64,000 nt of DNA from contig NC_091936.1 in NCBI RefSeq assembly GCF_041260155.1, forward strand, positions 44,428,930 through 44,492,929, read 5' to 3'. The notes under the pieces were generated by a model. That model did not search any database. It was not told the origin of the DNA and saw only the letters and a program-made list of their open reading frames with translations. Numbering within the stretch: position 1 is the stretch's first letter; each line of letters begins with the position of its first letter. The DNA is from Ptychodera flava. Its lineage: Eukaryota > Hemichordata > Enteropneusta > Ptychoderidae. A program made the translations under genes and the position numbers. Positions 2,945 to 57,539 of this stretch are shown one piece after another.

Positions 2945-3602
2945 GCAAGCCGAATGTGGATGACTAGTGGAAAAATTCGGTCAGTGGTGTAAGAAAACGG
3001 ATGTTAATTTTGGCATGCATTACGCGCCATAGTACGTACACAATTACACAATACACAATTAACATATTGGTCACTAGCGCTAGCACATCACGTAGAAATG
3101 AAATTTGATCATTTCCCACCTTCCTTAAATCTTTATCTCTACGGTGCAGTCGTCGAGTCATCATGGTGCTCTCTCGAAAATCTGGATCTTGAGAAAATTA
3201 AAAGTCTGAAACATAAATTATGAGTAGTGAAACTTTACACACATTCGTGACGGCAACCCAATTAAGACATACATTGCTTGTAGATCTCGTTTCCCAAATG
3301 GAGAGTGGTGATATCACGAGAAACAACATGTGCAATTTATCTGGCTGCCTCGGGTTATGTTGCAATTTGTTCGACACTGAAAAGTTTTTAAGTCGACAGT
3401 GAATTACGGCTAGGCCTTGATTCACATTCCATGCAACGTCAAGTCAAGAATTCCCGCTATATGAAATCAGGAATCATACGGAATCCCAGTTTGTAAGAGT
3501 TTAGGGTTAGAGTTAGGAGTTTCAGCCTTAGCGTTCTGACATTTAAAACATATTTTTCTGAGAAGAGCCAAAGTATGGGAGTGGAGGGGCTTGTTGAGGC
3601 CT

Positions 3603-3905
3603 TGTTACAACCGATAACGTAGTAACTAACCGATAACGTAGCAAACCCGATAACGTAGTAAAAATTTACCGATAACGTAGTAAATCAACCGATAACGTAG
3701 TAACGAACCGATAACGTAGTAAATTTTCTAACCGATAACGTAGTAAAAATTTACCGATAACGTAGTAATTTTTCCTAACCGATAACGTATCAACAAATTT
3801 ACCGATAACGTATCAATGAACCAATAACGGATTAAATCAACTGATAACGTAGAAAAGTCAACCAATACCGCATCAAAACAACCAATAATATATCAATTAA
3901 CTGAT
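3603..3905 (+). repeat. Left arm: 16-bp repeat array (ACCGATAACGTAGTAA)
   Basis: About twelve recognisable 16-bp units with variable 2-8 bp linkers. The outer ten are nearly exact. Those beyond about 3810 degenerate (ACCAATAACGGATTAA, ACTGATAACGTAGAAA). Confidence 0.9.
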
Positions 3906-3967
3906 AATATCTGATTAAGTTTTTCATTAGGAGCGATAGATCGATCGATTTATAGATAAAGAAGTAT

Positions 3968-3982
3968 TAGATAGATAGACAC

Positions 3983-4045
<63 letters not shown>
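3968..4045 (+). repeat. (GATA)n microsatellite
   Basis: Uninterrupted GATA repeats sit inside the left arm of the foldback element. ATCGATCGAT-rich sequence surrounds them to about 4290 and is mirrored near 7210-7450. Confidence 0.95.
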
Positions 4046-4495
4046 GGAATAGGTCGAGCAATATATCGATAAATAAATCGATCACTCAATCGATAGATCG
4101 ATGGATCTATCTATCGATGTTTGATAGATGGTCGATCAATCGATCAATCGATCGATAGATAAATTAATGGGCAGATCGATCGATAGAACAAAGGATTCAT
4201 CAATTCGATAGCAAGATAGATGAATTAATCGATAGATCGATCGATCGGTTCGATAAATTGGTCAATAGATAGATAGATCGATTTGTTATCACATTGTCTC
4301 GTACGTAATTTTCTTTAATTCTATTTATTTTTTCCGTTTAGCATTAATTGTCACAAATTTCTGCAGCAAATTGTGTTTCGACTGTTTTCATGGTAGTACG
4401 GACGACTAAGTTGATCTAAATGTTGTTAAACTACTGGAATAGGTTTGGGAAGTTATTTCTAGTCTTGCTATAGTAGCTATACAGTTTAGTTCTAG

Positions 4496-5177
4496 CACAG
4501 AGGAACATAGACAGAGTGGCAACGGGTATTGTTTAAGGCGTGAAGCGGTTACGTAACCCATCCATGTTCGCCTCGCCTCAGGTTGCTCTCGCCTCTCTTT
4601 TCCGTAGAGTGCCGACCATGCATCCTTCGGTAATTTTCGGATTTTCGCCAATTGTTAAGCGAAAGTATGTTCGGCAAAGTTTGTGTTGTTGTTGTCGTGT
4701 GGTGCTGAGCGGAATTGACGTGCTGGCGAAAACGGGAGTGTTTTGAGCTTCAGGAAAGTGAGTTTTACCGTTTTAAAAATTCCTCTCATATTTTTATGAA
4801 TAAATAATGAGTGTGTTTGAACCAAATTTGAAAGTCTTTTATCGATACTGTCTGGTTTTACTCAATACCGTCTTTTACACGTGCGTCAAGGAAGGACATG
4901 TTTATGAAACTGCTGGCGTGTTATGTTTTGATTGGCGTGAAGCAGTGTTTCTGGCCTGAGAGCTCACAAAGAAACTATGGTTGCTACGCGACTGGCAGTA
5001 CGATGCCATCTCGTCGTATTTTTCGCATAATCTCGTGTAATTATCAACCACAAACAAAGCCTCCAAAAAGTTTAACACCTTTGAAGCTCATTTTAATATG
5101 AAAAGCCAATAGTCTACCGAGACGACCATGGAACAAAAGGCATGCAAGCGTTGCCACTCTGTCTATGTTCCTCTGTG
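4496..5177. mobile_element. 682-bp non-autonomous DNA transposon nested in the foldback element
   Basis: A perfect 29-bp terminal inverted repeat starts CACAGAGGAACATAGACAG at 4496 and ends with its reverse complement at 5177. It is flanked by the 7-bp direct repeat GTTCTAG (4489-4495 and 5178-5184). The interior is richer in G+C than its surroundings but has no recognisable transposase. A 7-bp duplication does not match the usual 8 bp of hAT or P elements, so I do not assign a superfamily. Confidence 0.85.
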
Positions 5178-6528
5178 GTTCTAGTTGGGTAAAATCCGAA
5201 GAGACAGTATAAGTACCGCAATCACCGACAGCCAACATCGCAAATTTCACACACATATTGTATACGTCACCGATAGAAGTAACTGCATATTAATGATTAG
5301 CCAAAGAACATTAATTAGTCATTCGTACAATTGACGATTTTTCGTGTTATTGAAAATTTCCATCGGGTGTATTTGAAAAAGGTAACCATATCAGTGATTA
5401 ATATGCAGGAACATGCAATATAAATGTATGAGTGAACTCTGGTAAGGCCAAGAAAAATAACAAGCTCGTTTCTCATCTTACACATATTGCAAAAATGATG
5501 CGGTGACGCGGGTTTCTTTTCTCCTCAATTTTTTTATTCTTCAACCAACAAGAACGCGCAAAAAACATGAAAACGACACAGGAATGCACGCAGAAATATA
5601 TGCACAGCTGTGTTGCTTTAGTATTTTTGTATAGCAACAGTTCTGTTGACTTTTAGTGCAGCAGTGCACAGTTTTGTCAATTTAATATAAAAGTGACGTA
5701 TGTGTACAGTTCTGAATGGAATGTTATAGTGTCAGTTATTTTGTTTACAGTTCTGTTTTATACAGCACTGTGTTATGCATCGCGTATTTTTGCGGGTTTT
5801 TAAAATTTTATTTCCTCATGAGCAGAAAAAAGGTTGACGTGGGGGTCTGAATTGACGCGCGCGAGGATGAGAAACAAACTTTTTATTTTAATTGGCCTAT
5901 GCGTTTTTTCTATCAGCTCTATAATATAATACTCAATAATTTTGCGATGTCCTCGTAATCCTAATTCAAATAAGATATGACGACGCGAATCACGACAGAA
6001 AGGATAAAAAGGAATGAAAAAGCAATATGTTGTCTACAAAATATGTTGACTTGGCTTGCTTACATGAGTAACTTGCAAAATTAATGAATACTGATTCTGA
6101 AGAATTCCATTGAACAATGAGTCAAGATTTACCTGTAATTCAGTCCCAGAATGAGAGTGACATTGTAAGCTTATTGTCATTTTGATATACTGACGTTGTA
6201 AATAACGAAATTTCATAATCGGTCATGTTGAAAACTTTTTTCCAAGTCCTACCACCTTAGAAAGTGTGTCGATAAAGACACTCACATGTGTGTTGTATCT
6301 TGAATTAAAAACTATCTACTGTTGATTGACCAATCAGAGTGCTCAATTCAGGGTGTTTTATCTACTCGTAAGCCTTGGTCACCAAATTCCAGAAACGAAT
6401 GACAGCGCCGTAGTAAAGTACTGTCCAATCAAAAGTGAACATGTCATATTCTGTAGACATCTGGTACGTTTTAATATTCAAATTTGGTAACACAGCGGAA
6501 ACCAGCTGCAACACAAAATCTGCTGTGC

Positions 6529-6569
6529 CCTAGGGCATTTATATAATGTGCCCTAGGGCATTTATAGGA
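6529..6569 (+). repeat. Duplicated palindromic motif TGCCCTAGGGCA
   Basis: Two direct copies of TGCCCTAGGGCATTTATA, each containing a 12-bp perfect palindrome, sit back to back inside the foldback element. Confidence 0.7.
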
Positions 6570-6728
6570 TGTTCCATTTCATTGGAAGGCTATTTCACAA
6601 GTGAAAGTTTTAATTCATATCCTAAACATGTTACATTGACAAAGGGGACGGTTGACGTAAACACATTGAAAACGAAAATATATCAGTTAGGGGCGATAGT
6701 TTTTAAGTTGGATAAAACCCTCGTACTC

Positions 6729-6829
6729 GGGCTCTTCTGGTATATAAAGTCCAACCCTACGATAAAATGTCTCGGCCTGCGGCCTCGACATTTTATCATT
6801 GGGTTGGACTTTATATACAAGAAGAGCCC
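6729..6829. repeat. 101-bp near-perfect palindrome
   Basis: Arms beginning GGGCTCTTCT and ending AGAAGAGCCC fold into one hairpin of about 50 bp per arm with few mismatches. The centre is around GGCCTGCGGCC. Direct copies of CCCTCGTACTCGGGCT flank it. It lies within the foldback element, off its centre. Confidence 0.85.
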
Positions 6830-7232
6830 TCGTACTCGGGCTTTATCCTATACTTCATCCTGCAGGAATATTTATTAATTATTTCGCATTTCCCCAATTG
6901 ATGAAATTCGATTCGTTATGTCTGAGTAATATCAAGACTAACTCTGAAGGTGTAACTGATTGACTATATATAAAAACGAAAGATACAACACTCATTAATA
7001 TTCAATTAGTTTCCATTTATTAATACATTATCGGTCGATTGATAATTTATTTGTTGACTTGGTGCATTTTCAGTTGATTGGAATCTGTACTCTTTGACTT
7101 GGCTAGGTTATTGGTTGGCTTGATACATAATTGGTTGATTTAATACGTCATCGGTTACTTTGATATGTTATTGTTCTCTTGGGCACATTATTGGTTGATT
7201 TGATACACTATCAATCGATCGATCTATCTATC

Positions 7233-7237
<5 letters not shown>

Positions 7238-7311
<74 letters not shown>

Positions 7312-7312
7312 C
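7238..7312 (+). repeat. (TA)n then (CA)n microsatellite
   Basis: About 30 TA units followed by a short CA run, inside the right arm of the foldback element between ATCGATC-rich tracts. Confidence 0.95.
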
Positions 7313-7499
7313 AATCGTTCTATTAGTCAAGCAATAGATCAATTCATTCAATCATTCAGTCGATAGAAAGATCGACCGATTGATATATCAGTACATCGAT
7401 AGACCAATCGGTCGATCTATCGATTGATCAATGGATTGATCGATCGATCGAGGATACATCTATCCCTAAGAATATATTCCCATGATTCATTTGATCCAA

Positions 7500-7730
7500 T
7501 ACATTGTCAGTTGATTTGATACGTTATCGGTAAATTTGTTAATACGTTATCGGTTAGGAAAAATTACTACGTTATCGGTAAATTTTTACTACGTTATCGG
7601 TTAGAAAAAATTACTACGTTATCGGTTCGTTACTACGTTATCGGTTGATTTACTACGTTATCGGTAAATTTTTACTACGTTATCGGGTTTGATACGTTAT
7701 CGGTTAGTTACTACGTTATCGGTTGTAACA
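7500..7730 (-). repeat. Right arm: 16-bp repeat array (TTACTACGTTATCGGT)
   Basis: This is the mirror image of the left-arm array, about ten clear units with the same linker order. One linker differs slightly, and one unit reads GTATCAA where the left arm has GTAGCAA. Confidence 0.9.
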
Positions 7731-7735
7731 GGCCT

Positions 7736-9406
7736 TTCCAATGTCGTATTGAATCATTCTCGCGAGCCAGAGCAATAATTTCCGCTCCGCTGACCTACGC
7801 AAAAATCAATCTCTTAACGGGTAGCGCTGAGCTTTTGCCGTAAAGAGGCGTGTGGTCTGCGACGATGTATTGAATTCAAACGGTAGCAGAAGAATCACGT
7901 ACAACGAGCTATGAAGACAGTGATACAATATAGTCAAGACTATAGCCATACTATGTTTCAGGTTCCGGAAAAACATAAACCCTCCAAAATATACAAACAA
8001 AGACAATTAAAATCAAAAGCAAAAGTTAACGCTATCGCAGATCAAATCAGAAATCTAATTGGCAATGTGCAACATACTCTCTGCGTAGCAAACAGTGAAT
8101 TCAACTTCTTCTATCAATCATTTGGTTCGCTGTTTTCCGTAATCTATTACACGTTTATCTTCAGCACGTTTTAGATTTTCGTAATCCGATAAAACAAGCG
8201 ACATGGTATTTTCAGTCTGGGTTCAACCTCCGTTGAGAATGTAGCTTGCAAAGGCAAATGCAGTAAAACTCAAGACCATAATCTGAAAATACAATGAATG
8301 ACACTGTGCTCCCATTTGTCCGGAGCTGATGTAAGGTTGTCCCAAATTTGAACAGCTAAAGTAGTTCAGAGAAGATGCTTTGACCATAAAAAAGATCATG
8401 AGAAAAATTCTGAGTTAAGTCACCTAGAGGATCCAACAAAAAACCAAAGGTTAAAGTGACAGGTCGACTATTTTTAAAAAACCTGAAATATTTTTATCAT
8501 ATATGAAAATAAAATATTGGAACTACAAATGTAAATTTGCGGGACGAGGTCATCCCTACGAGCCTGAAAACCAACGTTTAAACTATCGGACAAGTGCCTT
8601 CAGAGAAGATCATCTTTTGACCAAAATCCAGAAAATTTGCCGTAAAATACTCACATGCAAAATGTATCAACATTTCAACAGCTCCGAATTACGTATTTCT
8701 CAGGCGCCTACAAGTCAAGTTCAAACCTACAATTAGACGAGCTGCTTCATAGATTTTCAAAAATGTTCATACATTAAATAAAATGATAAAAAATTCATGT
8801 GCAAATTATATAGTACTTTGAATAGGCCTAATGAATTCTAAATAGGTACCAAACGTCTGAAAACTCGGAACAACAGTACTTCAGTTTTTAATTGAAGACA
8901 ATTTTCATATCTCCATTGGGTGTTTTCTCTGCATGTTCACCATTGTTCACTGAAGGGAAATTTTTGCCCAATTCATCAAAATTAGGGGTCAGACGACTTT
9001 TTAAGGGGGGGGGGGCAGTATTTTTTAATGCTTACCAATGACATATCCTATCAAAAATACATGAACATAAACTGGCACTAGTATCCATGGAGACTGAACC
9101 ATAACTATGTCTTTGACTGTTCTTTTGGATGTGGACAATCCACGTTATGCACGTCATCAAAGTTGAATGACATGACATGCCATATTTTGTCGTTTCCGAC
9201 ATCGTCGTAAATCACGGCCTCTTTACGGCAACAGCTAAGCTTAGCTCGCGAGAGTGCTTTCCCGAGGGGCATTATGACTATAAACAACATTATTTACAGG
9301 TCACTACACTATGCACATGGGTCACCATCATATGGGCGTACTTGCGTGCTGTGTTTTGTGCGCGATTTTCGCAGAAGGCAGAAAATGGCTCGAAATGCGC
9401 TGATTG
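7736..9406. other. Intergenic with probable 1.4-kb inverted-repeat element
   Basis: The 13-mer GCCGTAAAGAGGC at 7837-7849 has an exact inverted partner at 9217-9229. The similarity extends to about 40 bp (7827-7868 against 9199-9238, both ending ACGATGT). This suggests a decayed inverted-repeat element. An 87-codon frame at 7911-8174 shows no recognised domain. A poly-G run lies at about 9005-9015. Confidence 0.45.
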
Positions 9407-12397
9407 GGGACTGGACATAAATTAGGGGGGGGGGGGAATGGGCCGGTGTTTTTTGTGGGTGGGTCGCAAATTTTCGCGCAAGCATTTTGAAGGGTCATAA
9501 AATTTTGTGCAAGCCTATGGGGGAGGGTCACCTTTTTTTCATGCATCAAAGCTGAAATTGCATGTGCACGTATTGAAGAATATGGAATACTGAAAAAAGA
9601 AAAAATACCTCCTGGCACTTTCATTTTCTGCCATTACCATTTTCGGCGCGCCCTTCGGGTGCAAATTTCAGGTATAATAAACAATGTATTGATGATCCAA
9701 GCAGCCACATTGATTTATGTTGTCATGTTTTCTACTTATTCAACTCCTCTATTGTGCTTAACGGTCCCCTATAATGACTCTTTCAATAACAATTTGGGAG
9801 ATCACTTATTTGACATCATTCTCCCATTGACAATACATTGGGTATAGGTTGGTGTCAAACGTTCATGTCGCTGTATGTACATTTTTTATTTTTTGAGGAC
9901 ATTGACAGAATACAAACTATTCAGAATAGTGCATAGTTTGATCAATAACAACTGGAAGCTTCAGGTTGAACAACTTTTGAATAACAAAATAATCGCAATC
10001 ATACCAATCCATAATCCAATAACACTAGGTCAAAATTTGTAAGACAATAGTTGTAAACATAGACACAAAACAGCACAGAACAGACAGTAAATAGACGGTA
10101 CACAAACAAAGTCATAATTTAGGATCAGATAACCTATGAGTTACTTGTAGTTTCCTCACAGCCTACAATGTATAGTGAATCAACATTTTGGTGAAATTCT
10201 AAAAATCAAATTTCTTGCACAACCATTGACTTGAAACCCCTCTAGTCTAATCATGAATATTAATACTAATAATTAGGTGTACATAAATGCACAGGTCTAC
10301 CAAGTTTTGTATCGGAAAAAAATTATTCATAGTTTCATCATAGACTGCCATGTATAGTGAATCAACATTTCGGTGAAATTCCAAAATCAAATTTCTTGCA
10401 CACCCATTGACTTGAAACCACTCTAGTCTAATCATAAACATTAATACCAATAATCAGGTGTACATAAATGCACAGATTTACTTAGTTTTGTATTGTAAAA
10501 AAATTATTAATAGTTTCATCATAGACTGCCATGTATAGTGAATCGACATTTCAGTGATATGCCAAAATCAAATTTCTTGCACACCCATTGACTTGAAACC
10601 ACTCTACTCTAATCATGAACATTAATACCAATAATCAAGTGTACATAAATGCACAGATTTTCCTATTTTTGTATGGAAAAAATTGTTAATAGGGTTTCAT
10701 CATAGACTGCCATGTATAATGAATCAACATTTCGGTGAAATTCCAAAATCAAATTTCTTGCACAACCATTGACTTGAAACCACTCTACTCTAATCATGAA
10801 CATTGATACCAATAATTGAGTGTACATAAATGCACAGATTTTCCTATTTTTGTATTGGAAAAAAATTATTCATAGGGTTTCATCATAGACTGCCATGTAT
10901 CATGAATCAACATTTTGGTGAAATTCTCAAATCAAAGCTCTTGCACAACCATTGACTTTAAAGCATTCTAGTCTAATCATGAACATTAATACCAATAATC
11001 AAGTGTACATTAATGCACTGAGTTACCTAGTTTTGTTTTGGAAAAAAATTATTCATAGTTTCATCATAGACTGACATGCATAGTGAATTGACATTTAAGT
11101 GATATGCCAAAATCAAATTTCTTGCACAACCATTGTCTAATCATGAACATTAGTACCAATAATTGAGAGTACATAAATGCACAGATTTTCCTATTTTTGT
11201 ATTGGAAAAAAATTATTCATAGGGTTTCATAGACTGCCATGTATAGTGAATCAACATCTCGGTGAAATTCCAAATTCAAATTTCTTGCACACACATGGAC
11301 TTGTAACAACTCTAGTCTAATCAAGAACATAAAGATCAATAATCAAGCATACATAAATACACAGATTTGCCAAGCTTTGTATTTTAAAAAAATTATTCAT
11401 AGTTTCGTCATAGACTACGATGTATAATGAGAATGTAATGTGAATTTTATGCGAAATTCCAAAAACAAAGTTATTGTACACAGATGCACGTGTTACCACC
11501 CTCTTCTAATCAAGCACAATTATGTCAATTATTCAGGGTCCATATATGCACAAATAGTGCATATTTTTAATTCTGAAAATTTTTTTTTACAGTTTTGTCA
11601 TAGACTCCCATGTATAATGGATCAACAGTTTATGCAAAATTCCAAAAACAAAGTTATTGTACACAGATGCACGTGTTACCACCCTCTTCTAATTAAGCAC
11701 AATTATATCAATTATTCAGGGTCCATTAGTGCAAATTTTAAATTCTGAAAATTTTTTTTATTTTTTTACAGTTTTGTCATAGACTCCCATGTATAGTTTT
11801 GTCATAGACTCCCATGTATAGTGGATCAACATTTTGAGCGAAATTCCAAAATCAAATATCTTGTTTACATGTGCACTTGTAAACAACCCATGCTAATCAA
11901 GTATATCTATATCAGTTATTAAACATCTATATATGAACAGATATTGCTAGTTTTATACTGGAAAATACACGTTCGTAGTTTTCTTATAGTCGACTACCAT
12001 GTATAGTGAATCAACATTATCGATGAAAACTAAAAATTACATTTTTTGTACAGGCATGCACTTTTTACCTGCCACTTCCAGCAAAGTACATTTAGATGAA
12101 TTATCACACACATATGATTTGATATTTTTTGGACAACGTGTTATATCGGCCACATTTTGCCATCCTTTCGGGAGGGCGACTTAAAAAGTAAAGCAAGTCA
12201 GAAGGGACTCTTGAACACATTGCGGGTTTGTTGGGGGGGGGGGTATTGAGTAACAGGGGAGGGTCACTTATTTTCATGCACGGATAAGGGGGAGGGTCAC
12301 TAATTTTTGTGCATGAACTTTTGAAGGGTCACTATTTTTGATGCAGCGGTGTTTCGAAAAACACCGGCCCCACCCCCTGTAATTTATGTCCAGTCCC
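9407..12397. mobile_element. ~3.0-kb inverted-repeat element carrying an internal satellite
   Basis: The left end reads GGGACTGGACATAAATTA (9407-9424), followed by a poly-G run and CCGGTGTTTTT. The right end (12380-12397) is the exact reverse complement of the first 18 bases, and poly-G, GGCCGGTGTTT and GAGGGTCAC motifs recur inverted at 12230-12380. The interior is mostly a ~182-bp tandem repeat (listed separately). I see no transposase or clear target duplication. Confidence 0.75.
10140..12045 (+). repeat. ~182-bp tandem repeat, about 11 copies
   Basis: Units share TAGACTGCCATGTATAGTGA, then CAACATTTCGGTGAAATTCC, then TTTCTTGCACAACCATTGAC. Starts fall near 10160, 10343, 10523, 10707, 10891, 11068, 11227, 11409, 11590, 11800 and 11990. 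Copies after 11400 are more diverged. Confidence 0.9.
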
Positions 12398-14374: not shown

Positions 14375-15864
14375 TAGCTCCGCTGTGTATATGTAGAGAA
14401 TAACTATTTTTGACACATGTTGATGAAGAAGGTGGAAATCTTTGATAGCTCATTTCAATGGCCAGAAAAAAGTGGCTAAAATAGCTGCAAAAATACACAA
14501 TTGAAGATTTCATCATAATTTGAATATATCACATTGGATCATCCCTGAGAACATGTCAACCAAAGCTATCTGACGAGTAGTTTTTTGAGAATGAAATTTT
14601 CTGACCAAAAATGGCAAAAATTGCCCCAAAAATAAAAATTGCAGATTTCACCATAATTTCAATATATCATATATTAAAATAATCCCTTGGAACCTGTATA
14701 CCAAATATCAAAGCTATCGACTTGCAGTTTTTGAGAAACAAATTTTTGACCAAAAATGGCAAAAATTGCCCCCAAAATACAAAATTGCAGATTTCACCAT
14801 AATTTCAATATATCACATTTAATTCATCTGTAGGAACCTGCATATCAAATTTCAAAGCTATCAGACCAGTACTTTTTGAGAAACACATTTTTTGACCAAA
14901 AATGGCCAAAATTGCCCTAAACATACAAAATTTCTTTATATATATCAAGATTTCTTTATAATTTTAATAAATATCATTTAGATCATCTGTAGGAACCTGT
15001 GTACCAAATTTCAAAGCTATCAGATGAGTAGTAATGGAAATACACGTTTTTTTACTAAAAATGGCAAAAATTGCCCCAAAAATACAAAATTACAGATTCC
15101 ATCGGAAATTCAATACATTTTACTAAGTTCATCTGTAGAAACCTATATATCAAATCTCAAAGTTATCAGACCAGTACTTTTTGAGAAATACATTTTTTGA
15201 CCAAAAATGGAAAAAATTGCTTCAAAAATACAAAATTGCAGATTTCATCACAATTTCAATAAATATCATTTAGTTGATCTGTAGAAACGTGTATACCAAA
15301 TTTCAAAGCTATCAGATGAGTAGTTTTGGAAATACAAATTTTTTGACTAAAAATGGCAAAAATTGCCTTAAAAATGCAAATTTGCATATTTCTGCACAAT
15401 TTGAAGAAATCTGAAATAGATCATCCCTAGGGACCTATGCACCAAATATCAAAGCTATCTGACTGGCAGTTTTGAATAAGAAGATTTTTAAAGATTTTTT
15501 TACCGAAAACGACAAAAATTGCCTTAAAAATACAAATATGCAAATTCCACCACGATTTGAAGAAATCTAACTGAGGTCACCCTAAGTAAACTGCATATCA
15601 AATTTCAAAGCAATCGGACTAGCGGTTTCAGAGAAGAAGATTTTTTTACCAAAAACAGTAAAAAAATGCCCCCAAAATACAAATTTCCAAATTTCACCAC
15701 GATTTGAAAAAAACTTAAGTGAGGTTACCCCAAGTGAACTGCATATAAACTTTCAAAGCAATCGGACTTGCGGTTTCAGAGAAAAAGGCAATTGTTGACG
15801 GACGCCGGACGACAACGGAAAATCAACCTATTTGATAAGCTCCGTGTCGCTGACAGCGGAGCTA
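14375..15864. mobile_element. 1.49-kb inverted-repeat element with ~149-bp internal repeats
   Basis: A 12-bp perfect terminal inverted repeat: TAGCTCCGCTGT (14375-14386) and ACAGCGGAGCTA (15853-15864). Between them lie about nine diverged copies of a ~149-bp unit containing GCAGATTTCACCATAATTTC, AAATTTCAAAGCTATCAGA and TTGACCAAAAATGGC. The right end also carries AGCTCCGTGTCGCTGA, which can fold against the terminal repeat. Related decayed sequence occurs near 21690-22330 and 24740-25560. Confidence 0.75.
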
Positions 15865-28900: not shown

Positions 28901-31900
28901 ACTCGTATACCTCAGTAACAAACACAGTATTGATAAAATTATGACATACATATACAGAAAGCAACAAGAATGAAAGCCTTACCCCAACTCCAAGCTCTAG
29001 ATCATAATCTGCAGGGCCTATTTCCGCATCTGGTGGTAAATCTTTAATTCTTTGTAGCATGGCCCATGCAGCAGCTCGTTTCGCTATTTTCTTGGACCTG
29101 CCTTTACCTGTTGTTAGATCAAGGATATGAATATGTAATATCTTTACAATTTTAAAAACTAGTCTAGGAATTTGTCTACCCATTAGAGACACAGCAGACT
29201 TCCCTGAAGAATCTCCAATGATACAAATCATAATGAATCATGAGATATCTCCAGTACTGTGTACTGAACAATTTTGGTAGAATCAAGAGGTGGAGATGAT
29301 TTATCGCAAAATGCAACTATGTATAAAGATGCTGGGGTTTTGCTTACGTTGGGCATCATGTGTCATGTTATACCATGTGTCATGGTATTATGAACGCTGA
29401 GAGACACTTGTATACTTATACTAGAAACATGAAAGTAAATTGAAAATTTAATGTAGCAATATCTTCAGGCACTCAAAATTTAAAGATTAAAAGATTTGGT
29501 ATAAAAATTTGAAGATTAAAATCATACCCAGTGACAGAAATCAAAAATTAATATGACAAAATGACTCTTTGGCATTCAGTCACTTGCATGACAGTTTAAT
29601 GGTCCACAATACAGTTTTGTACTAGCATGTTCATTTTGGTGAACAAAGATGAGGGCGCTGTTCACTTTAGAAGTTGGATCAGCAATTACTAGTACTAGTA
29701 TATTCTAAAATGAGAGGTCAATGTCATCACTGGCAAAGCTAATTTGGCTAATGATGTACTGATATAATTTGGAGGAAGAGAAAGAAAAATTGAATGATAT
29801 CCTGAGAAAGAAAAGAGTTCATAAAAGCAGCAACACTGGCTTTAAATTTGTAATTGACATAATTTTATGGGAGAATACACTGGATACTACAATGTACTTC
29901 TCTAATCTTTGATCACTCCAGACTCAAGTAACCATTCTGTTCAGTTTCAGAATGTTTCAATCCCTTCCAGTGCATTACAAAGGAGTGAAAGGCAACAGAA
30001 AATAATGATATTGACCTTGTTCCTGAAAACTGTGAACTCTGCATGCGATGATAAATTCTCGGGAATGGGGAGGACCACATTCACTGAGTAAGATGTAGTC
30101 TGGTCTTCTCCAGTGCCTTGCCACGACCAATTCCTGTAGCTGTCCAACTGGATTTCCAGGTATGCCGTCATTGTAGGCGGCTGTGCCATCTGTTACTGTT
30201 GAAGTAGACCCAGTCGGGCTGCTATTTGACGTGAGATTTGAAACAAAAAGTGGAAAGGTGTGAGCTCACAGTGTCAGCAGTTGTTTTTATTCAATAGTCA
30301 CTGTGATACAAAATGATACCAATGTGTATAAATAAACTGATATTAAAATACATTGATCTGAGGTAAAAATACTGAAAATTTCCTGAGACATGGATGCAGT
30401 CTGTAGACTTTCTCACACCTCCTTGTTGGTTGTAAAGCAATGAGGCCAGCTCAAGTCAAACCACTGAGGGCGCAATCAGAGTGATCGGGAGATATGAGGC
30501 TGCACAGCAAACGTGAGGATGTCAGAATATACAGGTACACTGTACATTGTCTGATGTCATCTGATAAGCATTCACAGCTCTAGTTGACTGCAGAAGCTGT
30601 TGGCAACGTCTTACAACACAACTGTGTTTCAAACCACACAACGAAACGTACCACCATTCTCTTTAGCAGAGTTGATATCTTTTCACTCTCAAAATGTCGA
30701 ACTGAATGGAAGACGTCAGTAAAATTAAATATGTGATGGAATGTTCCTTTGGAGAATGTATTTGAGACTAAACAATGTGACAGGCTGTTCTCCTGTAACT
30801 CTCTCTCATACATTTTTTTAGTTGAAAAACTATAGTCACACTCAGTATATGGCAAGTATATGACAAAATTTGTCATATACTCATCACTCCAGCCTGATGA
30901 TGTTTACCATAAATTTTCAGACAAAATTTAAGATTTTTCCCATCATTTATGATATATGAGAAAACATCTGATCCTTGTGTTGTATCAGCATTCATGTCAT
31001 TTGTGCTACGTCAGACACTCGACTTTGTCTTATATCTGATGAGGCACAAATGACACTCATGCTGATATGACACAGTCACTGGTGATATTTGGTAATATTT
31101 ACTGATTATTAGTGAAAATTTGTTTTTGTCTTTCAGTTGTTAATTGATATATGCATGTGCCTTTCACTTGTCGATTGGATGTATGTCATTATACCGATAC
31201 CGTATGTACCATAACTCGTTCTCACGCAAATTTTCATGTAAGCAACTGTATGGAGAAGCAAAGACATGTCTTTTTACGGAGGAAGAGGAGGATATATGTA
31301 TTTTTCAGTCATTCAAGGGTTTAATCCCTAATGTTCTACACTTTTCCAACTACTTGCACATTGTTTAGGAGAGTGATATTAACAGGCAAACACCGTACAA
31401 TTCGTGACTTTGTTCTTTAGAATAACTGAAAATCATAAGGAAATCAACATGGTTTGGAATATATATCTTGAACTTGTCAATCAAATAGTCTGAAATCAAC
31501 AATACATCTGTGGCATGAATTTGTTGATATTCACACAAAGATTGGCAAATCAGCTGCACAACACTAATTCTTGTGATTGGTGAAAATATAAGCTTTGTAT
31601 GATGGCAACTGTATATTCATTACCTGGGTTCTTGTGCAGCAGGTGAAGGCTTGGGCACTTGTATGTTGAACTGCTGTAGGACATTTTCTGCAGCGTTGTG
31701 TTTAGCTTGTTTCTTGCTGGTGCCATCTCCATTGGCAGTGTGTTCACCCACTGTGACTCTGTACACAAACTTTGGTTGGTGCGCTGCTCCTTCACACGCA
31801 ATGAGGTCATACATTGGAGTCAACGACCTCTTTGTGCAGAGCTCTTGAAGTATACTGATGGGTGTTTTCATTGGTTTTGCGCCACTTTCACTCTGCTAAA

Positions 31901-55616: not shown

Positions 55617-57539
55617 TCACTTCAAAAGGTGACGTCGAGCTAATTGAGTATCCAATCACGGTCTCTCCAACACATTTGTGATCCAATCGAGAAGAAGATT
55701 CACAGTCACTCTTCCAAAGGGGGCGTGGCCATTTTTGCAGTGCGGCTGACGCCTTCTTAGTTGTTACGAGAATTGCTGTAAATACAGTGTTTATGATAAG
55801 TTGGAATGGGCCTTCCGCAATATATGTTTACATATTCAGACTTCAATCGAGTCGATCGTGACTGCTCGAAACTCTCTTTCGACGACGTCTGCTTCGCTAA
55901 CAAATATGATACGTGTATCACCTGCCTTTAGCCTTGGGCATCGCTCAGAGACTTGATGTAATACTTTTTATAATGCCAATGAATCCTTCAAATGCATAAA
56001 CAGCACGTTTGTCTAAGCTTGAGAAATTGTAAGTCGAGTTTGAGATCACGAAATGTACTAAATAGACATATACACATGCATGTCGATCGATCAGATTAAG
56101 TTCTGTAGATGGAAGTGCCAACTTGAAGGTAGTAAGATATTGGCGACGTTATCAACACAGTAATGGGTGTACACATGAGATAGACTGCAGTTTGCGCTAA
56201 TTGCTCTGTGACTGCTCACCAATTTGCTAGTAAAATTATAAAATTCTAAGTTTTTAATCATGCTCAGCACCCATTGGATAAATCTTGATCTATCATTGTT
56301 CGTTGTCTAAAGAGAATAATGATATCATCAGGATTTTATTAAGTATTGCAATGTACTGCCTCCATGCATAAACCAACGTAATGTGAGATTTTATTACCGT
56401 AAAAATGCAAGTACAGTGATTTATTTTTCGTGAGTTTTAATCGCCCTGAATATAAGATATTTACTACATGGGATACTGTGAAATGTTAAATAGGGACACC
56501 ATTAGTTTTTCATATGATACCTGAGTTGTTAAGATCGGCACGTTTTTGAGTAGATCTTTGCATATTAATCGTCTTTTATGTCATGCTGTTTATTATTTTC
56601 CTGATGAATATCTAACAAACGTCACTTATTAGGAGAGAGACTAAAAGAGTCTACTCGTCCTTGTTATCTGATACGGTGAAAGTAAATGCGTGACATGTAT
56701 CAAGGTACTATCCGTCATCTAACAGAATTGATGGCGGGCGTAGCTGAGGGTCAATGACGCCGTTTTTTGACCAACTTTATCCTTTCATTCTCACCGCCAT
56801 TTTTGTTCAACTAGACATTCAAGTCATTCAAAAGCGTAAGCTAGTCTCGTGTTACACACAGCAAAACCTTGCTTCAATTGACGTCAATACGAGACGAATG
56901 ACCTAGGTAAGCCGAAAGCGTACAAATGTAGACTAAGCCATGTCTGTCGTTTCTCAGATCACGACTTCAAGTTTTATATTTTGTACACGGCGATATATGA
57001 GTAAAATAATCTGCATTCGCCTTCCGTTTATGCTAGAACCAGCCACAAAATTGAAAGACTTTCCTCAAGGAATAAAACTCAAGATTAAAAATCCGGGATC
57101 ATTTGATAACAGAGACAAAAATAACATAATATTTTCCGACGTTTGAAATTCGAAATGGCCGCCATCGCTGTGTTACATCTAACATAATGGGAACAAAACA
57201 TATTTTCGATTCAAAAAAGACGGTGAAAATTTTATGTGCTACAGAAACCTCAAAATGAGCCTCCGATTAGTATTGTGAAAATTAAGAGCCCGGATATCTG
57301 TCACCAAGGCGCATTCTATATTTTTGCTTATAACGATTTGAAAGATTGTAAAGTATGCATTCACTCTCCAGCTGAAATACCAGGAAATACAAATAATGAA
57401 TACGACAATTGTAATTGTATCTCACACTTCCATGAGTATGTACGATACTGTATTTTCCTACTGGTCCTCTGAACACCTTCAACACATACAAGAAAACGCT
57501 GCCTTGGGACGTTCATTTTGAAAATTTGTGTAAGAATAC

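Follow-up and report, generated by a model that had tools for sequence, protein, structure and literature searches.

The stretch of Ptychodera flava DNA analysed here, 64,000 nucleotides of contig NC_091936.1 (positions 44,428,930 to 44,492,929) and hereafter called the window, holds a single foldback element of 4,126–4,128 bp, which was recovered by sequence reading, by repeat finding and by a scan with its repeat unit. The original prediction, made from the letters alone, had placed a foldback transposon at 3598–7735, and the element is present at those coordinates. Each of its arms consists of an outer and an inner array of a short repeat together with a block of simple sequence, and the arms enclose a middle domain and are flanked by a direct repeat. 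Where the length of the target-site duplication shifts a limit by one base, both values are given.

3597..3603, forward strand: AGGCCTT, the flanking direct repeat (target-site duplication) on the left, with the 5-bp core GGCCT at 3598–3602
3604..3816, forward strand: left outer array, ten 16-bp ACCGATAACGTAGTAA-like units with linkers of 1–9 bp, which form the ordered terminal inverted repeat (TIR); with a 5-bp duplication its start is 3603
3817..3915, forward strand: left inner array of some five decayed units, spaced by about 20 bp
3916..4290, no strand: left simple-sequence block, (TAGA/ATCG)n, limits approximate
4291..7011, no strand: middle domain with no recognisable protein, limits approximate
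4496..5177, no strand: nested separate element of 682 bp with a perfect 29-bp TIR (CACAGAGG...) and the 7-bp duplication GTTCTAG
7012..7215, reverse strand: right inner array, ten register positions at a 20-bp spacing (within one base), decayed
7216..7495, no strand: right simple-sequence block, (AT, ATCG)n, between the outer and inner arrays, limits approximate
7516..7729, reverse strand: right outer array of ten units, in the opposite orientation to the left array; with a 5-bp duplication its end is 7730
7730..7736, forward strand: AGGCCTT, the flanking direct repeat on the right, with the 5-bp core at 7731–7735

The 16-bp unit occurs in ten copies per arm and in opposite orientations, so the description of the arms as mirror-image arrays of one repeat is borne out; six of the ten copies in each arm are exact and the others are one or two bases off. 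Elsewhere in the window (outside 3501–7800) five matches to the unit were found at no more than four mismatches. Repeat finding returned the arms as two pairs, 3603–3727/7606–7730 and 3724–3816/7516–7608, complementary at 98–99%, and when the arms were aligned over 3604–3816, 210 of 213 ungapped columns were identical, with two gap columns. Past 3816/7516 the identity between the arms is sharply lower, falling from 98–100% to 65–71%. The near-identical zone at the outer ends thus exists as predicted, with a length of about 213 bp (3604–3816 and 7516–7729) and not the 240 bp proposed. The linkers between the units are the same in the two arms in eight of nine cases and follow the same order, with a total edit distance of 2; among shuffled linker orders only one in 200,000 reached eight identical linkers, and none in 20,000 reached an edit distance of 2. 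This common linker order identifies the arms as true TIRs, as had been claimed, and long inverted arms built from tandem repeats are one of the features by which the foldback class is recognized.

A flanking target-site duplication is another such feature, and AGGCCTT is found on both sides of the element, with a duplication length of 5 or 7 bp. Direct repeats of GGCCT lie on either side of 3603–7730, an interval of 4,128 bp, and the match extends to the 7 bp of AGGCCTT; the boundaries first described, 4,128 bp between GGCCT repeats, are accurate in position, with GGCCT being only the core of the longer repeat. Control positions in this window at which a 7-bp direct repeat abuts a 4,126-bp interval numbered six of 59,401, or 65 of 59,401 when each end was given one base of freedom. 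The 7-mer AGGCCTT is not itself rare, with four occurrences in the window (3412, 3597, 7730 and 38576), and the evidence therefore lies in its exact abutment at both ends of the element. The outermost T/A pair is shared equally by the inverted repeat and the direct repeat and a single copy is at hand; as a consequence, a 5-bp duplication (ends TGTTAC) and a 7-bp duplication (ends GTTAC) fit equally well, and a 6-bp duplication with uneven ends is a further possible option. The 5-bp duplication put forward originally is compatible with the sequence without being established by it.

The window was also scanned for exact 10-base inverted ends, at most 6 kb apart, abutted by direct repeats of 5–9 bp. 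Four of the six rows returned cover three clear structures, namely the foldback element, listed twice (with the 5-bp and with the 7-bp duplication), the nested 682-bp element and the palindrome at 6710–6848. In the remaining two rows (5-bp repeats, at 31,896 and at 57,410) the ends are short and imperfect, and both rows look like chance.

These results bear on the alternative that there is no transposon at all and that a minisatellite was duplicated in inverted orientation. Arrays and simple sequence are both present, which speaks for this, but unit and linker order are mirrored between the arms, and both arms stop at the same base of the repeat, where they are abutted by a 7-bp direct repeat as rare in the control as stated above. 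An inverted minisatellite is thus very improbable indeed.

Within an arm, the units are far more alike than the linkers that separate them, the mean pairwise edit distance per base being 0.064 for units versus 0.64–0.65 for linkers, and 13 of the 16 unit columns are invariant across the 20 outer units. Tandem copying alone would leave the linkers about as alike as the units, which suggests that the units are constrained; the contrast has the look of a constrained site and not of plain tandem copying. The same comparison bears on another origin of the likeness between the outer arms, in which one end was copied onto the other by gene conversion or gap repair, without selection acting on both. 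Such copying would be compatible with a transposon and would agree with the sharp fall in identity at 3816/7516, but it leaves unexplained why units within an arm are alike while linkers differ, and we regard it as possible, if somewhat unlikely. The first 117 bp of the array, folded as a strand, were not stabler than shuffled sequence (z 0.45; 134 of 200 shuffles folded at least as well).

The inner arrays are of a different state. A weight-matrix scan found extra decayed units at 3820–3881 on the left and at 7020–7200 on the right, the latter in a 20-bp register (within one base) and on the far side of the simple-sequence block from the right outer array; some register positions are barely recognisable, for example that at 7080, with six of 12 core positions mismatched. 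The two inner arrays share the repeat, since their alignment scored 68 against a mean of 26.5 and a maximum of 40 in 300 base shuffles. The possibility that they are ordered inverted repeats was rejected, as 92 of the 120 orders of the left pieces (the observed order included) align at least as well as the observed one. Inner unit order is thus not shared between the arms, and the ordered TIR comprises the outer 213 bp only.

The decay of the inner units is concentrated at CpG sites. With each of the 16 register positions allowed a one-base shift to its best match, 30 of 64 CpG-site bases had changed versus 17 of 128 other bases (Fisher p 8e-7), and 25 of these 30 changes are C>T or G>A. The corresponding counts are 22 of 52 versus 11 of 104 for 13 hand-listed inner units, and 28 of 60 versus 13 of 120 for the 15 positions with at most five mismatches. 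The 32 inner CpG places now read TG (11), CA (nine), CG (six) or something else (six), and the presence of both deamination products argues that CG was ancestral. In the outer units all 40 CpGs are intact. The window as a whole has a CpG observed/expected ratio of 0.69 and a TpG+CpA ratio of 1.28, which resembles a genome that has lost some of its CpGs. The base changes in the inner arrays therefore look like the outcome of CpG deamination. Since the outer parts, unlike the inner ones, have stayed nearly intact, this decay is probably older than the last insertion. The earlier statement that the inner part of the arms has decayed holds in this form, with decay mainly at CpG; what decayed is a repeat of about 20 bp whose order is not kept from arm to arm, and not a simple continuation of the TIR.

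Simple-sequence inner domains had also been predicted, and blocks of this kind are present in both arms. Their depths relative to the inner arrays differ, since the left block follows its inner array and the right block precedes it. The ATCG/GATA-type blocks at 3916–4290 and 7216–7495 lie directly next to remnants of units, from which they may have expanded.

No mover is encoded in the interior as far as it was scanned. The longest stop-to-stop open reading frame (ORF) in 4291–7011 is 114 amino acids long, and a Pfam scan of 29 of the 30 ORFs of at least 40 amino acids that overlap this domain gave nothing above a family cut-off, the best E value being 0.022; the ORF left out (4203–4337, minus strand) is mostly simple sequence. 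Neither a transposase, including one of the Mutator type, nor an integrase or THAP domain was found in these 29 ORFs, which is compatible with a mover supplied in trans.

The superfamily to which such a mover might belong depends in part on the duplication length. With a 5-bp duplication, GGCCT, the ends would be TGTTAC...GTAACA, as might be left by an integrase-type, Ginger-like mover: TGTTA fits the Ginger end pattern TGTNR, and Tdd-4 and Tdd-5 have 5-bp duplications together with TIRs of 260 and 297 bp (PMC2836005), while a review gives TG...CA ends and 4–6 bp duplications for Ginger (PMC10741241). However, neither GGCCT nor AGGCCTT matches the preferences given for these families in the Ginger paper, where metazoan Ginger2 families have 4-bp duplications and prefer RTATAY, and Ginger1 prefers CCGG or CCGT (PMC2836005). 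The end match amounts to just five letters and the 29 ORFs scanned hold no integrase domain, and a Ginger-like mover is improbable on the whole.

With a 7-bp duplication, AGGCCTT, the ends would be GTTAC...GTAAC, which would suit a Galileo-like mover of the P superfamily; the direct repeat here is indeed 7 bp, with 5 bp fitting equally well. P-type ends, however, usually begin with CA, which those of the present element do not, and the same ORFs hold no transposase or THAP domain. Galileo is described as foldback-like, a P element whose TIRs are internally repetitive and whose duplications are 7 bp long (PMC3573991, PMC4168063), but AGGCCTT does not match its target consensus, GTANTAC (PMC4168063), and we consider this affiliation distinctly unlikely. 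The third candidate is a Mutator/Phantom mover, as for Tm1 and, on its authors' suggestion, Tetris. Most foldbacks seem to belong to Mutator/Phantom according to the Tetris paper (PMC4079207), the TIRs of Tm1 are tandem arrays of a 13–15 bp unit (PMC3169594), and 7 bp falls within the range of 7–12 bp that a review gives for the duplications of Mutator elements (PMC10741241). The duplications of Tm1 and Tetris are nevertheless 8–10 bp (PMC4079207, PMC3169594) and the match here stops at 7 bp, in a single copy in which an outer base may have decayed; a mover of this type is unlikely.

Two further superfamilies did not fit. The long TIR sets the element apart from Dada, in which the U6 and U1 families have no TIR, insertion is into small RNA genes and the duplication is 6–7 bp (PMC3706591); no Rfam match at the gathering threshold was found in the window. 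IS3EU, with TA..TA ends and a duplication usually of 6 bp, did not fit either. Inverted arms and a duplication also argue against Helentron-type elements with repeats.

Among known foldbacks, the original prediction had named the sea urchin TU and Drosophila FB elements, from general knowledge, as the closest architecture. Compared by description, these have short tandem units, mirror-image arms and distinct outer and inner domains, as here, and differ in their duplications of 8–9 bp and in their units. In architecture, Tm1, with its 13–15 bp repeats, and Galileo are at least as close. In Tm1, a Mutator/Phantom foldback of Meloidogyne, the TIRs are likewise made of a short tandem unit (13–15 bp versus 16 bp here), members are non-coding and the arms of one element are slightly different (mean identity 93% in Tm1), whereas the unit is another one, the duplications are mostly of 9 bp versus 5–7 bp here, and asymmetric 7-bp terminal motifs lie outside the inverted repeat, the ends being symmetric here (PMC3169594). 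Galileo of Drosophila, in the P superfamily, resembles the element in its long, internally repetitive TIRs, in its 7-bp duplication, should that be the length here, and in ends that are more conserved than the rest, and some of its repeats hold secondary transposase-binding sites; it differs in the length of its repeats (about 140 and 210 bp versus 16 bp), in the GTANTAC consensus, to which the target here does not conform, and in the evidence for a transposase, which exists only there (PMC3573991, PMC4168063, PMC3688188). Tetris, a foldback of Drosophila virilis, is likewise non-coding and has several domains in its TIRs, tandem repeats among them, but these repeats are of about 220 bp and the duplications of 8–10 bp; the same paper also refers to foldbacks in D. 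melanogaster and in sea urchin (PMC4079207).

The interpretation of a foldback transposon with true TIRs and a target duplication is well supported by the mirrored arms and by AGGCCTT abutting both ends. The element is probably a foldback (long-TIR) DNA transposon that is non-autonomous and moved in trans, with the outer arrays as putative multivalent transposase-binding ends. A transposase made elsewhere would cut at the TGTTAC/GTTAC ends and paste the element into a new site, and this pasting would duplicate AGGCCTT, or only the core GGCCT. At each end, the ten copies of the 16-bp unit, which are nearly identical, would most likely be repeated transposase-binding sites, which may raise the affinity of the ends and help the two ends to pair, and multivalent binding of this kind would fit the contrast between units and linkers. 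Only the outer 213 bp of each end appears to have been maintained in a functional state; the approximately 20-bp repeats of the inner arrays probably decayed before the last jump and are probably dispensable. The closest precedent from experiment is Galileo, the DNA-binding domain of whose transposase is reported to bind sites in the tandem repeats of the long TIRs; for Foldback and Phantom elements, the authors described such a role in 2013 as untested (PMC3688188).

Several points weigh against the transposon being built and moved in this way. In Galileo, a site was present only in the first and second of four long repeats, and transposition was not obtained (PMC3688188). The units of the present element are spaced by 17–25 bp (mean 21 in the left arm) and no helical phasing of this spacing was found for periods of 10, 10.5 and 11 (Rayleigh p 0.19–0.69). 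The identity of the arms could be due to gene conversion instead of selection or recent insertion. The CpG argument is partly circular, because the outer units serve as the ancestral reference, the outer zone was drawn from the identity of the arms and the inner units were placed by best match. Finally, one copy is known, without a second copy or an empty site for comparison.

A bolder version, which is quite improbable, would place the foldback family on a transposase lineage not previously tied to foldbacks in the cited literature, such as a Ginger-like integrase-type lineage (TGT...ACA ends, 5-bp duplication). The ten CpG-bearing 16-bp sites at each end would then have been kept intact as a multivalent landing array, and the inner copies would have been lost to methylation-driven decay.

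Copies of the family would be marked by the string TGTTACAACCGATAACG in inverted pairs within 10 kb. No relatives of the element were found in the phage, viral and prokaryote collections searched, animal genomes not being among them. In IMG/VR the exact 16-bp unit occurs at 42 loci with one match each, which are presumably scattered chance matches; two units in tandem occur at none. Two units in tandem were found at three prokaryote-genome loci, which are short tandem repeats in contigs of bacterial metagenome-assembled genomes (MAGs) and showed no inverted partner in the parts examined. The left arm (3598–4070) gave one weak match to phage records, over 32 query bases at an E value of 0.5. 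The end of one Balneolales MAG contig (L044:3894–4014) is a perfect 15-bp tandem array, ACCGATAACGTAGGG, that shares 13 bases with the 16-bp unit; the likeness is probably chance picked out by the search.

In the literature searched, the unit and end sequences did not occur in any of five forms, and no report of a long-TIR element with 16-bp repeats was found. A search for foldbacks in marine groups gave 'foldback element' in none among the matches listed, and one for sea urchin, FB and TU elements found only the Tetris paper (PMC4079207). Judged from one copy and from the phage, viral and prokaryote searches, the element most likely represents a new family of a known kind, the foldbacks. Foldback elements arose in several transposon lineages, and the present one offers a natural contrast, within one element, between intact outer and decayed inner units of one repeat. 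Should other copies in the host genome show this contrast too, they would map the part of a foldback arm that is needed for movement; if they do not, the element is an ordinary genomic resident.

The nested 682-bp element at 4496–5177 sits inside the middle domain, which is therefore older than the nested insertion. Its 29-bp inverted repeat reads CACAGAGGAACATAGACAGAGTGGCAACG, and in a control a 7-bp repeat abutted a 682-bp interval at six of 62,901 positions. No Pfam match above cut-off was found in it, and a 25-base piece of its end had no occurrence in IMG/VR; it is a probable miniature inverted-repeat transposable element (MITE). The near-palindrome at 6710–6848 is 139 bp long, with 68-nucleotide arms that are 85% complementary and a 3-nucleotide gap, and is likely to be a palindromic MITE.

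Ten ORFs outside the element were also scanned against Pfam, giving one match above cut-off and four below. The former is to the second and third domain of TACO1/YebC, at 35.8–36.2 kb. The others are to the N-terminal domain of TACO1/YebC at 34.1–34.5 kb (E 6e-7), a double-stranded-RNA-binding motif at 28.9 kb (E 0.002), a class C G-protein-coupled receptor at 63.3 kb (E 3e-5) and a receptor ligand-binding region at 47.9 kb (E 0.18). The matches at 28.9, 34.1–36.2, 47.9 and 63.3 kb are likely to be host exons, and the class C receptor parts at 47.9 and 63.3 kb are presumably GABA-B-like. The splitting of exons and this combination of proteins, although most of the matches are weak, point to an animal as the probable host. 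The window further contains three tandem arrays: one at 2514–2944 with 10.8 copies of a 40-bp unit, one at 10148–11430 with a 181-bp unit and one at 14561–15712 with a unit of about 146 bp.

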